DNA of 64,000 nt from Methanolobus sp. (GTDB lineage Archaea; Halobacteriota; Methanosarcinia; Methanosarcinales; Methanosarcinaceae): NCBI RefSeq assembly GCF_016278385.1, contig NZ_JADQBY010000015.1, positions 1-64,000 of the forward strand, written 5' to 3'. Each line of letters begins with the position of its first letter. The first letter of the stretch is position 1. The notes under the pieces were generated by a model. That model saw nothing but the letters and a program-made list of their open reading frames with translations. It searched no databases and was not told the DNA's origin. The position numbers and the translations under genes are program-made. Positions 52,947 to 64,000 of this stretch are shown here, one piece after another.

Positions 52947-52975
52947 GCCTTTTGGTCTACACTATATTTTTTTGT
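52943..52975 (+). terminator. Terminator of the ilv operon
   Basis: GTAGGCC and GGTCTAC (one G-U pair) form a 7-bp stem around TTTT, beginning in the ilvC stop codon and followed by a T-rich tract with seven Ts. Confidence 0.65.
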
Positions 52976-53016
52976 TATTTCCTGAATTTGAATCTGATTT
53001 TATATTGATTTTGAAA

Positions 53017-53241
53017 TTAGAATGAATTGAGCAATCTTTTATTAAGCTCGTACCTTTCATCTTTAATATCTGCGATCTCACACTTGATCGTCTCTTTTTG
53101 ACTTATAAGTTCCGCTTTTTCGTCTTCATTGAGAGCATTTCCTATGCCCTCGATAACAATATCTAATTCGTCTTCGAGATCCATTAGTTCATAACCCAAT
53201 CTAGTTGCCTTTTTATTAAGTTCAGCAATATCTTCATTCAT
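53017..53241 (-). CDS. Small coiled-coil protein
   Basis: 74 residues, strongly acidic and helical, with heptad spacing (MNEDIAELNKKATRLGYELM; ELISQKETIKCEIADIKDER). A helical hairpin or dimer is likely. It has a single Cys at about position 54. GTGGGA is 7 bases before the ATG, and it starts 17 bases after the stop of the 418-residue gene, so both belong to one transcript. It may be the binding partner of that protein. Confidence 0.68.
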   Translation of the reverse strand: MNEDIAELNKKATRLGYELMDLEDELDIVIEGIGNALNEDEKAELISQKETIKCEIADIKDERYELNKRLLNSF

Positions 53242-53258
53242 CTTATCCCACGTCCCAA

Positions 53259-54515
53259 TTACAGTTTAAATGATAGTATTTTAATAAAATCGAGTCTTGG
53301 AGAATATATTGCACCTGCATTCCTTAATGCAGCAATAGCATTTGATAACTCAAAAGGACTGAGCAAGGATATTGTTTCAACATCCTTCATAGAGATTATC
53401 ACGTCAATACCAAAAGTATCTTCAAGTTGAAGATATAATTGAGCTGCTTCTTTGGGTAAACGGAATATTTCCCCGGAAGAGAGATTTGATTTCTTAAACT
53501 TTGAAGCATGTACGAACATGTCCATCCATATATCAAAGCCTTCGCGTACATTGGCAACGGAAACTTCATTGCTAAAGTTCATTCGGGCAATACTTGAACC
53601 TAATTTGGGAGCAGCATCACCAAGGTCCTGTTTGTAAACAAAATTATGCGAGCTTGTGAAGGTTTCTGTCATTTCATAGATACGATCGGTCAAACATTTT
53701 TCTGCCTTCTGTGTAATCTCTGGCTGAAACATTAAAGTATCCAGAAGATGAGCCCTTACAAATGGAATCTCAAAAGAGACATCTGCGGAATAATCAGACT
53801 TTGGGCGCATCTCAGCATCAAAAACAATAGGCAAATGAACAAATGTTTCTTTTGGCATTAATATTGAAAGGTTTACCTCCATACTGCCTAATGGATTAAT
53901 TTTCTTTTCAACTGCAGAAGAACTGTAAAAATAAGGAGATTTTACACTTTTAAATTCCCGTGGAATTACTTTCTGTAAAGAAAGAAAAGAATTCCATCCA
54001 CTCTTCTTTGCAATTATGCCAGAATCTATACCGCCTTTTTCATTGATACCAATTGCATTTGATGAAACGGAACATATTGCAAGACACTGAGAAATACTAT
54101 CAATGTTTTCGTCTGCCCTATTAAATGGGTGTTTGAAAAAATTAATATACTCTTCCTGATCCATTACCTTTCTGTGAAGAAGCTTGTTTGGATCTATTTT
54201 GATCCATGCTTTGACATACCGGACATCGATGTTAACAAGATTATCAAATGTACCTTTGACAACTCGCTCTGTTTCAAATGATGTAACCTTGATCAGATCA
54301 TTCATTTTTGGTATCGGAACAGATTCATCAGCTATTATGTATATATCCCTTTTTGGCGTGGAGAGAAAAGGAGAAGGATCAAGATAAAAAAGTCGTCTGC
54401 TTCGGCCATCAAATCTAACAAAGCCCATCTCATCACTTTCAAATATGAGTTTGTGTTCTACACCAGAAAGCTCATAACCAAACTCACGATTTTTCAGGGT
54501 TTGTCTTTTGACCAT
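53259..54515 (-). CDS. Unknown protein with MCM-like C-terminal features
   Basis: 418 residues, soluble. Four regions can be seen: a beta-rich start (1 to about 75), a region ending VRYVKAWIKIDP that looks like an OB-fold edge, a middle part with no Walker motifs, and a C-terminal part in which APKLGSSIARMNFSNEVSVA resembles the lid helix of MCM helicases, followed by a winged-helix-like end (NAIAALRNAGAIYSPRLDFIKI). A nucleotide site is absent, so it would not be a helicase. The MCM link is inference from the pattern only. A coiled-coil partner is encoded downstream. Confidence 0.5.
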   Translation of the reverse strand: MVKRQTLKNREFGYELSGVEHKLIFESDEMGFVRFDGRSRRLFYLDPSPFLSTPKRDIYIIADESVPIPKMNDLIKVTSFETERVVKGTFDNLVNIDVRYVKAWIKIDPNKLLHRKVMDQEEYINFFKHPFNRADENIDSISQCLAICSVSSNAIGINEKGGIDSGIIAKKSGWNSFLSLQKVIPREFKSVKSPYFYSSSAVEKKINPLGSMEVNLSILMPKETFVHLPIVFDAEMRPKSDYSADVSFEIPFVRAHLLDTLMFQPEITQKAEKCLTDRIYEMTETFTSSHNFVYKQDLGDAAPKLGSSIARMNFSNEVSVANVREGFDIWMDMFVHASKFKKSNLSSGEIFRLPKEAAQLYLQLEDTFGIDVIISMKDVETISLLSPFELSNAIAALRNAGAIYSPRLDFIKILSFKL

Positions 54516-54672
54516 AACACGACCTTCTCATTATTGATTGATAAGGTTTATTCAACTTGAACTAAAAAGAGCAGTGATTTTAACTATTAACTGTAATTCT
54601 ATAGTCTTTAACTATAAGTGATCAGGAATTATTCTTTTGATAAGTGGCACAAAATACAACAGAGGGCAAAAT

Positions 54673-61053: not shown

Positions 61054-64000
61054 ATGATAAAAAAGTATCAAAGGCATGAAGATGGCCCTTCAGGCCTGCC
61101 TGAAAACAGTCACGATGGTTTTGAGAAACTCGTTGACGAACTGCCCCTTGGCATACTTTCATGTGATAGGGAAGGAAACATAACCGCAGTAAATGATTTT
61201 CTCTTGAATATATTAGGTTCTCCTTCAGCGGAAGCCACTCAAAAAATCAATATGCTGACTTTTCCAGCCCTGGTTGAATCCGGTATTTCTGCAGTTATTG
61301 AAGAAGCCTTTATAACAGGCAGGAATTCGTCGATAGAAACGTTTTATCAATCCAAGTGGCAAAAGAAACTCTTCCTGAGTTTCAAGGTATTTCCCAGAAA
61401 GGACGATAATGGATTCGTTTATGGATGTCACACTATTATCGAAGACCTTACAACCAGAAAGAGAGCAAACATCGAACTTGAAGAAAGCAAAAGCAAGGAT
61501 AATCTGATATCACAAATATCAAGCCGTTTTATCAACAGTAATTTTAAAGATATTAACAAAGACATCAATAGTGCGCTTAAGGATCTGGCAGGTTTCATTG
61601 GTGCTGATCGTGTAGTTCTGTTCAGTGTTGCTGACAACCCAGATTATATCATTAAAACCCATGAATGGCATGCTGAAGGAGTAATCTCTAAAATACAACT
61701 CAATGAGAAATGGGATGCTAAAAAGCTTGTATTTGAACAGCTTAGGAATTTGCAAATAATAAACATACCTGATGTTGACAAAATATCAAAAGAAAGAGAG
61801 TATGTACAAAAGACGCTGCAGAACCTTGGTATAAAATCCATTGCAATGGTCCCTCTTTCACGTTACGGTGTTTTCAAAGGCTTCCTGGGAGTAGATTCAA
61901 AAAGCAAGATACATGACTGGGGGGAAGAAAAAGAACTCTATGTCCTGAAAATTGCAGGAGATATGATCGTAAATCTCCTTGAACGCAAACAAACAGAATC
62001 TATTCTGCTCAAAAAAGAAAAAGAGTATGAAGAGGTCATCAATTCCCTGGACGCAGGAATCTGGAAAGCTATATTCGACAATGAAGGAAATGAAGTGGAA
62101 ACCTATGTTTCCAAAAACATGGATAAATTACTGGGATTCCCAGATGGGACCACAGGAAATGATTGGAACAATTATTTTGCACATATACATCCCGAAGACA
62201 CCATAAAAGTGAGGGATGTAATGAAACAGTCTTTTAAGCAACCTGATACCCCCTTGGATATAGATTACAGAGTGGTATCTGAGGAAGGGAAGATCGTCTG
62301 GGTGAATTCCTTAGGTTCTTCCCATATTAAGGACAATGGAACTTTCCTGACATTCGGAACCACGACAAACATCACAGAACGCAAAATGGTTGAAGAAAAA
62401 CTGCGTGAACGTGAGGAACTACTAAGGCTGTTCATAGATTATGCACCGGCTTCATTAGCTATGTTTGATCGCGATATGCGATATGTCGCCGTCAGCCATC
62501 GATGGCTCAATGATTATTTGCTTAGTGACCGGGATCTGCGTGGACTATGCCATTACGATGTATTTCCAGAGATCAGTGATGAATTGAAAGAGATACATCA
62601 ACGGGCTCTTAAAGGGGAAATAATCCATGGTGATGAGGATCGTTTCAAGAGAGGGGACGGAAGTATACAGTGGTTACATTGGGAGGTTCGCCCCTGGCAT
62701 GCCGTTGATGGTACGATTGGTGGAATTGTGATTTTTTCAGAAGATATCACCAATCGCAAGGAAGCTGAAGAAAAAATGCGTGAAAGTGAGGCTCTTCTCA
62801 ACGAAGTCGGAACAATTGCCAAAATAGGCGGATGGGATTGGGATGCAGCATCCAATGTGCTTACGTGGACACCTGAAGTTAAAAATATCCATGAAACAGC
62901 GGATATCGATACTCTTGAGAAAGCATTGAACTGTTATTCTCCGGATTCAAGGAAGATAATTGAAAAAGCAACATATGATGCTATCGAAAAAGGTGAATCA
63001 TTTGATCTTGAACTGGAAGCGATCACAGGAAAAGGATATCATAAATGGGTGAGGGCAATCGCCCATCCAAAAATAGAACATGGTAAAGTCGTAAAACTAA
63101 CCGGAGCATTGCAGGACATAACTGAGAAAAAGGAAGCTGAAGATGAACTGAAGCGCAATGATGAAAGATACAGGTCACTTTTTGAGCAGTCAAATGATGC
63201 CATATTCCTGAATCACATTGATGGACAGATAGTAGATGTGAACGAAAGGGCCTGCGAGATGTTCGGATATACAAAAGAGCAGTTCCAGAAAATGAATGTT
63301 GTTGATCTCCTGGCACCGTATCATAAAGCAGCTGGTGTTGTCGGGATGCAGCAATTCAGGGAAGACGGAGATGTCTATGTCCACACATTGTATGCAAAGG
63401 CAAACGATGAAACCTTTGATGCAGAGGTCAATGCCAAGGTACTTGAGGGATATCCGGACCTTGCACAGGCCATAGTAAGGGACATTAGTAAGCAAAAGAA
63501 AGCAGAAGAAGATATCATCAGAAGTGAGACTAAATACAGGAGTCTTTTTGAACAATCAAATGATGCCATAATGATCCACGACCTCAACGGACGAATACTT
63601 GAAGCAAATAAGAGGGCCTGTGAAATGTTTGGTTATAGTGAGACGGAACTAAAGAAAATATCGATGACTGATTTGACATTGGCAGAAGACAGAGATACAA
63701 TAAAAGAGAGAATGAAGAAAATAGAAACAGAAGGCTACTGTCGTAGGGATAACAAAATGATCAGCTCAGATGGAAGTATAATATATGTAGATATTAGTGC
63801 TTCATTCCTCAAAGCACAAAAAGGTATGATCCAGACTGTGGGAAGGGATATGACAGACAGAGTCCGGACTGAAGCAGCTATGCTCAGTGCGAAGATAAAA
63901 GCTGAGACTGCAAATCGTACAAAGAGCGAGTTCCTTGCCAATATGAGCCATGAACTGCGCACACCACTTAATTCCATAATAGGTTTTTCAGATGTAATGA
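61054..64000 (+). CDS. Multi-PAS/GAF sensor histidine kinase (3' end beyond window)
   Basis: At least 982 codons, running off the right edge. In order: a PAS domain (about 18-135), GAF (about 150-310), PAS (about 320-445), PAS (about 450-565), PAS (about 570-690), then two near-copies of one PAS (about 695-820 and 825-945: [15 protein letters not shown] / [23 protein letters not shown] in both), and HisKA beginning with His966 in [10 protein letters not shown]. The HATPase lies outside. No membrane segment is seen. The start is ATG at 61054 with a poor ribosome site. Confidence 0.9.

Follow-up and report, generated by a model that had tools for sequence, protein, structure and literature searches.

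What is the function of a two-gene unit that stands between ilvC and a nitroreductase gene in Methanolobus sp., and is its larger product a relative of the replicative helicase MCM that has lost its motor? An earlier note, made from the sequence of the window (the whole stretch of 64,000 nucleotides analysed here), had proposed a paralogue of the replicative helicase acting as an accessory factor in replication or repair. Relatives of ring helicases that have no catalytic activity are obvious candidates to regulate how the ring is assembled and loaded, and the loading and control of MCM in Archaea are far less understood than in yeast. We call the 418-aa motor-less MCM homologue dMCM and its 74-aa neighbour the partner. 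The sizes and coordinates of the two genes, and the 17 bases between them, are as the earlier note had given (Table 1).

Table 1. The two-gene unit, its site and the predicted domains of dMCM, in coordinates of the window.
Feature	Position	Strand	Basis
dMCM gene (418 aa)	53259-54515	minus	ORF
Partner gene (74 aa)	53017-53241	minus	ORF; predicted helical hairpin
Interval with the two-gene insertion	52947-54636		flanks are ilvC and nitroreductase gene
OB-like N-terminal domain (~residues 24-106)	54198-54446	minus	model strands and MCM OB alignment
Degenerate, shortened AAA+ core (~residues 111-262)	53730-54185	minus	VIA-align
MCM-type AAA lid (~residues 263-342)	53490-53729	minus	PF17855, PDB MCM4/MCM7
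C-terminal winged helix (~residues 347-418)	53262-53477	minus	hhalign, 2ma3 match, model helices and strand

The site of the unit in the genus

Of the 23 congeneric genomes that lack the unit at the window site, we sampled 15. In all 15, ilvC and the nitroreductase gene are directly adjacent, and in 14 thiC is next in synteny. The most plausible reading of the dMCM/partner pair is thus that it was inserted in the clade of the window. No terminal repeats or target-site signs were found at the window insertion. Topoisomerase I, a candidate functional partner given its position, was discarded because the synteny of ilvC, the nitroreductase gene and the topoisomerase gene persists without the unit in all 15 congeners. 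The genome of the window has a single copy of the 418-aa gene, and it also encodes a separate intact MCM (with the GDPGVAKS and SRFD motifs). Just upstream of the dMCM gene, positions 54520-54565 (TTATTGATTGATAAGG and around) are conserved in four genomes (G000, G004, G002 and G007); this stretch may be a promoter or operator.

Homology to MCM

Scores obtained with the window protein alone are weak: Pfam MCM_lid (PF17855) matches it with an E-value of 0.016, below the gathering cut-off, the best PDB match is at 0.035, and an NCBIfam search returned no match. The assignment to MCM rests on the family profile and on the structure model. PF17855 matches 5 of 20 family members at E<=10, the best of them at 5.1e-5. 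A profile of 20 family rows searched against the PDB (hmmsearch) retrieved an MCM4 chain and an MCM7 chain at 2.3e-4 and 2.6e-4; 13 of the 15 matches up to E 10 were MCM proteins (the rest being a transcriptional regulator and a pyruvate kinase), and the search gave a weak match to the MCM winged helix 2ma3. When 44 dMCM members were compared with 43 archaeal MCMs by hhalign, the E-value was 1.7e-5 (probability 78.5) on a path covering the lid and the winged helix through to the C-terminal end. Earlier, smaller sets had given E-values of 8.5e-4 and 23.8, the full-length path is of low confidence outside the lid and winged helix, and a global hhalign of the family with MCMs gave nothing useful. 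The family profile also picks up a real MCM in a scan of the phylum, again at the lid and winged helix (in G365; this protein has 702 aa and shares 51% identity with other MCMs).

The AlphaFold2 model of the 418-aa protein (8 sequences, pLDDT 74.8, pTM 0.73, residues 202-225 below 50) extends this relation. Foldseek returned 348 matches at E<=1e-3 (best 6.9e-10), and the best 50 of the 348 are all MCM-containing entries; the TM-scores are ~0.3, which would be expected if the domains are differently placed. VIA-align superposed the model on human Mcm5 (Z 16.4, rmsd 2.8, 193 residues, model 111-338) and on 3f8t of Methanopyrus kandleri (Z 15.4, rmsd 7.5, 256 residues). These two methods place model residues 24/28-342 on the OB, AAA+ and lid of MCM, e.g., model 24-339 on 3f8t 103-492, with OB strands at 30-35, 42-46, 57-60, 74-88 and 93-106. 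Few VIA-align rows include the winged helix, which is assigned mainly from hhalign. Against the BFVD structure library there were 7 matches at E<=1e-3, none of them named. The predicted order of the domains, as obtained computationally, is that of replicative MCM, archaeal or eukaryotic (Mcm2-7): OB, AAA+ core, lid and winged helix.

We conclude that the 418-aa protein is almost certainly a motor-less, distant homologue of MCM. The earlier note had recognised by pattern an OB-like edge, a lid helix and a winged-helix end, and these correspond to domains in the comparisons by Foldseek and VIA-align (by hhalign for the lid and winged helix). The relation is wider than it had supposed, as the AAA+ core of the model can be superposed on MCM as well. 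In the profile and structure searches that could have contradicted the link, MCM came out top. The claim of a paralogue of the replicative helicase that lost its motor thus holds as regards the motor-less MCM homologue, but paralogy with the host helicase is not established: the sequences are too far apart for dMCM to be placed inside or outside the MCMs of Methanosarcinales.

Loss of the motor

The earlier note had seen no Walker A, Walker B or arginine finger in the 418-aa protein, and this extends to all 44 members. Unlike replicative MCMs, none of the 44 shows, by pattern counts, Walker A (43/43 in the MCM controls), Walker B (35/43), the arginine finger (43/43), sensor 2 (42/43, using what we take to be its pattern) or the N-terminal zinc motif (39/43). 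The window protein is short, 418 aa versus ~700 for replicative MCM. A motif GG-[IVM]-[NDH], present in 38 of the 44 members (residues 161-164 in the window protein), seems to stand at the position of the GD-[IV]-[NH] that precedes the P-loop in MCM, judging from the low-confidence full-length hhalign path. From this motif to the lid there are ~100 residues (counted by hand on the alignments), roughly half the distance in MCM, which suggests that much of the motor was deleted. We infer that dMCM is unable to hydrolyse ATP as MCM does, and that it thus works as a binding protein.

Inactive MCM homologues are already known, and the closest precedent is MkaMCM2 of Methanopyrus kandleri (PDB 3f8t), described in excerpts of its report as an inactive homologue with natural internal deletions and no conserved Walker A (PMC2933578). 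Both proteins have an MCM fold without Walker A (in dMCM, according to the predicted model and the motif count), but they share ~14% identity and dMCM lacks ~100 residues ahead of the OB (model residue 24 corresponds to residue 103 of 3f8t). MkaMCM2, as far as these excerpts go, is a single protein of another lineage, whereas dMCM is a patchy family with a partner gene in one clade. The C-terminally truncated MCMs of haloarchaea, in the part of the source that treats them, are likewise MCM-derived, cannot be helicases and coexist with a normal MCM (PMC3972481). They are said there to keep the N-terminal domain only, in contrast to the OB, degenerate AAA+, lid and winged helix of dMCM; on that description, an OB-only protein encoded next to dMCM in Methanolobus profundi resembles them more than dMCM does. 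Lastly, MCM-like proteins of archaeal plasmids, e.g., those of the pT26-2 family, are presented in the relevant section of another paper as replication proteins (PMC6972569). Like them, dMCM is an MCM relative that travels on mobile elements; unlike the proteins portrayed there, its members are motor-less and mostly chromosomal.

Distribution, selection and transfer

Protein searches found dMCM in 13 of 60 relatives, and profile searches in 31 of the 237 genomes of the class. In a profile scan of a sample of the phylum, 42 of 392 genomes were positive and 35 were counted as carrying family members. We left out weak matches in G028 and G134, together with one from G128; they cover profile positions ~331-412 in frames with an inner TGA, and we treated them as chance or as a shared winged helix. 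Also left out were the ~500-720-aa frames of G336, G359, G367 and G484 that resemble the MCM of G365. Among GTDB species genomes, a scan located 8 dMCM loci, two of them in Methanomicrobiales MAGs. The family has a scattered occurrence, in Methanosarcinaceae, in Methanomicrobiales and in further lineages of the phylum. We assembled 44 distinct full-length sequences; broken or partial copies occur in G009, G032, G155, G166, G176, G178 and G364.

Across 30 pairs from four groups, the dN/dS of the large gene is 0.054-0.171 (in the clade of the window, 0.075-0.165), showing that the gene is under purifying selection, and 12 columns are invariant across 20 diverse rows. These data bear on the possibility that dMCM is a decaying pseudogene or resembles MCM by chance. 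Weak single-sequence scores and the existence of truly broken copies (G009) would fit such a view, but the dN/dS range, the 44 full-length members, the invariant columns and a fold search that gives MCM (Foldseek, VIA-align) make it highly improbable.

In the phylogenetic tree, six Methanolobus copies group with sequences of the Methanomicrobiales type (support 94/88), one copy of a Methanolobus genome (G026b) pairs with one of another genus (G128b; 97/95), and elsewhere members of different families are joined. These groupings across lineages make horizontal transfer of dMCM genes likely, and the family is patchy and apparently mobile between methanogens.

The small partner gene

The gene that the earlier note had placed behind dMCM is there, but its 74-aa product, described as a coiled coil, is predicted instead as a two-helix hairpin (helices 2-34 and 39-72; pLDDT 87.9, from a single sequence). 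A survey of co-occurrence showed that the small gene trails dMCM in one clade: the nine copies with a partner, counting those where a small ORF of putative kinship takes its place, are nine of the ten rows of a tree clade (support 95/95), the tenth being that of M. profundi, which has an MCM-OB neighbour instead. No similar small gene was found within 160 bases downstream of the remaining dMCM copies.

A profile of four small-protein sequences, run on the 8,631 ORFs of all context loci, matched one ORF beyond its own members (79 aa, E 0.0019). It lies 8 bp downstream of a dMCM gene in G126, which belongs to another genus. At the corresponding place in G128 and G133 (L093:12234-12480 and L095:11029-11276), the small frame has an in-frame TAG where G126 has CAG, and it stays conserved beyond this codon. 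As TAG is a pyrrolysine codon in Methanosarcinaceae, read-through by pyrrolysine insertion is likely here. Small charged ORFs also follow dMCM in G026 (71 aa, at a distance of 6 bp) and the second dMCM copy in G128 (69 aa, at 11 bp, with TTG as its start codon), with a putative kinship to the partner that is one of position and composition only.

The association is sometimes disrupted. A TnpB-like gene separates dMCM from the small gene in G002. In G007, the small gene is still beside ilvC and the large gene is elsewhere (L023, L024); both separated halves adjoin copies of one ORF of ~455-485 aa, as if the unit had been split by recombination between insertion elements.

Genomic neighbours of dMCM

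Most dMCM copies, including that of the window, have no replication gene next door. Among the 111 near neighbours in 30 representative loci, MCM_OB occurs in 2 and no domain occurs in more than 4 proteins. Three cases are of another kind. In G026, an Orc1/Cdc6-like gene lies upstream and overlaps the dMCM start by one base (Cdc6_C 1.1e-13, Cdc6_lid 2.9e-11). In M. profundi (G016), the gene of an MCM OB-only protein (3.6e-24) ends 34 bp upstream of dMCM. In G166, a protein with MCM OB and winged helix adjoins a split dMCM, and a Cdc6-like gene is found ~10 kb away on the same contig (C12), the three lying within ~12 kb. In 44 genomes there are 50 MCM_OB matches; just 3 of them fall in short proteins, 2 of which are encoded next to dMCM. 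By chance, 0.12 replication-gene adjacencies would be expected rather than three (P ~3e-4), in a rough post hoc estimate from ~107 rows counted by hand and 48 copies, each genome being assumed to have 2,800 genes.

Other features of these genomes were observed along the way. Contig C12 of G166 (40.8 kb; L206, L102), which is probably an integrated element judging from its gene content, also has a 793-aa primase-like ORF and a possible integrase, both recognised by eye. G004 encodes a 255-aa MCM OB-only protein (PF17207; L205:8982-9749) far from its dMCM gene. In L036, L141, L142 and L143, a gene for a small HTH-like protein (cluster c25) stands ahead of dMCM. Near one copy there are two radical SAM genes of viperin type, together with a TPR gene (L025:2364-7836), and similar radical SAM genes lie near the broken copy of G009 (L033). 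A TIR-domain gene (L029:11962-12522 and relatives, cluster c3) follows dMCM in a second Methanolobus clade.

Possible functions of the unit

We lean modestly towards reading the unit as a small accessory cassette. Its main product, a motor-dead MCM homologue, would bind the MCM ring or its loader. More tentatively, the function of dMCM may be to bind and control this ring or loader. It would bind the MCM ring of the host (or of an invader), or the Orc1/Cdc6 loader, as an extra subunit or a cap, through the MCM-like face of its core and lid and through its winged helix. Binding would alter where or whether the helicase is loaded or opened, and the helical hairpin could stabilise or regulate the contact. 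The outcome might be either recruitment, serving replication of an element, or blocking, i.e., the control or exclusion of competing replicons. Between the two accessory roles named by the earlier note, the Orc1/Cdc6-like and MCM-OB neighbours favour replication, and the uvrB neighbour in a few genomes leaves room for repair.

A bolder form of this explanation, which we regard as doubtful, is that of a mobile family of MCM pseudo-helicases acting in trans on the MCM ring, with missing parts supplied by neighbours, so that together they would imitate the helicase-loading complex in modular form and without a motor. dMCM would give the OB, core, lid and winged helix, and neighbours would add an OB-zinc part (G016), an OB-winged-helix part (G166), a Cdc6-like loader (G026) or the hairpin (window clade). 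Such a mimic would capture or block MCM and so favour or exclude a replicon.

A rival view is that dMCM is a replicon's own replication protein, which from plasmids or integrated elements would recruit the host MCM to the element's origin, the chromosomal copies being domesticated or selfish remnants. The plasmid pMETHO01 of Methanomethylovorans hollandica (G144:C1) carries a dMCM copy, annotated merely as a hypothetical protein, alongside a 690-aa MCM and Cdc6-like genes, and the genes grouped on contig C12 point the same way. Archaeal elements, in the portions of two papers that deal with them, recruit MCM genes and may form heterocomplexes with the cellular MCM (PMC6972569, PMC3984812). Yet the window unit consists of two genes only and is accompanied by neither an integrase nor an origin or Cdc6. 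A search of 50,697 phage records and two scans of viral contigs found no dMCM relative, and the chromosomal copies are under strong purifying selection. We consider this view unlikely. A DNA-repair accessory factor working with excision repair is less probable still: uvrB adjoins dMCM or is one gene away in L141 (G279), L036 and L041 (the latter two being Methanomicrobiales records), but L036 and L141 are close sisters, leaving at most two independent cases, and the window site has no uvr gene, its topoisomerase I being a mere syntenic neighbour.

We give a similarly small chance to an anti-element defence protein that would poison invading replicons by entering their MCM rings. Copies of dMCM do lie in variable islands, with neighbours such as viperins (L025) and TIR (L029), PD-Lambda-3_B-like (L096), Cap4-like STAND (L103) and Schlafen-AlbA (L149) proteins. 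Defence models, which are redundant, matched 89 times among 111 near proteins versus 49 among 95 far ones (after dropping one near protein that contained a stretch of N, from 112, and the far protein at 61054-63997 of the window, from 96). The farther genes of the same loci thus also include defence genes, and an enrichment of defence islands around dMCM is unsupported. Neither the 418-aa nor the 74-aa protein matches a PADLOC defence family at E<=0.01. The uvrB, TIR, viperin and PD-Lambda-3-like neighbours suggest other roles in some genomes.

Significance

A description of the dMCM family was not found in the titles and abstract openings of open-licence PMC articles, and an earlier mention is possible. 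What appears new here is the family, with its wide and patchy spread, its architecture free of the N-terminal zinc region, the predicted helical partner that one clade has, and its links to Cdc6-like and OB-only genes. The family would show that dead MCMs reach beyond one Methanopyrus protein. With a conserved but motor-dead MCM, which at times is in tandem with a Cdc6-like gene, the control of the helicase would become testable in methanogens, as the lineages bearing dMCM probably include the genetically tractable Methanosarcina (which we infer for genus g7).
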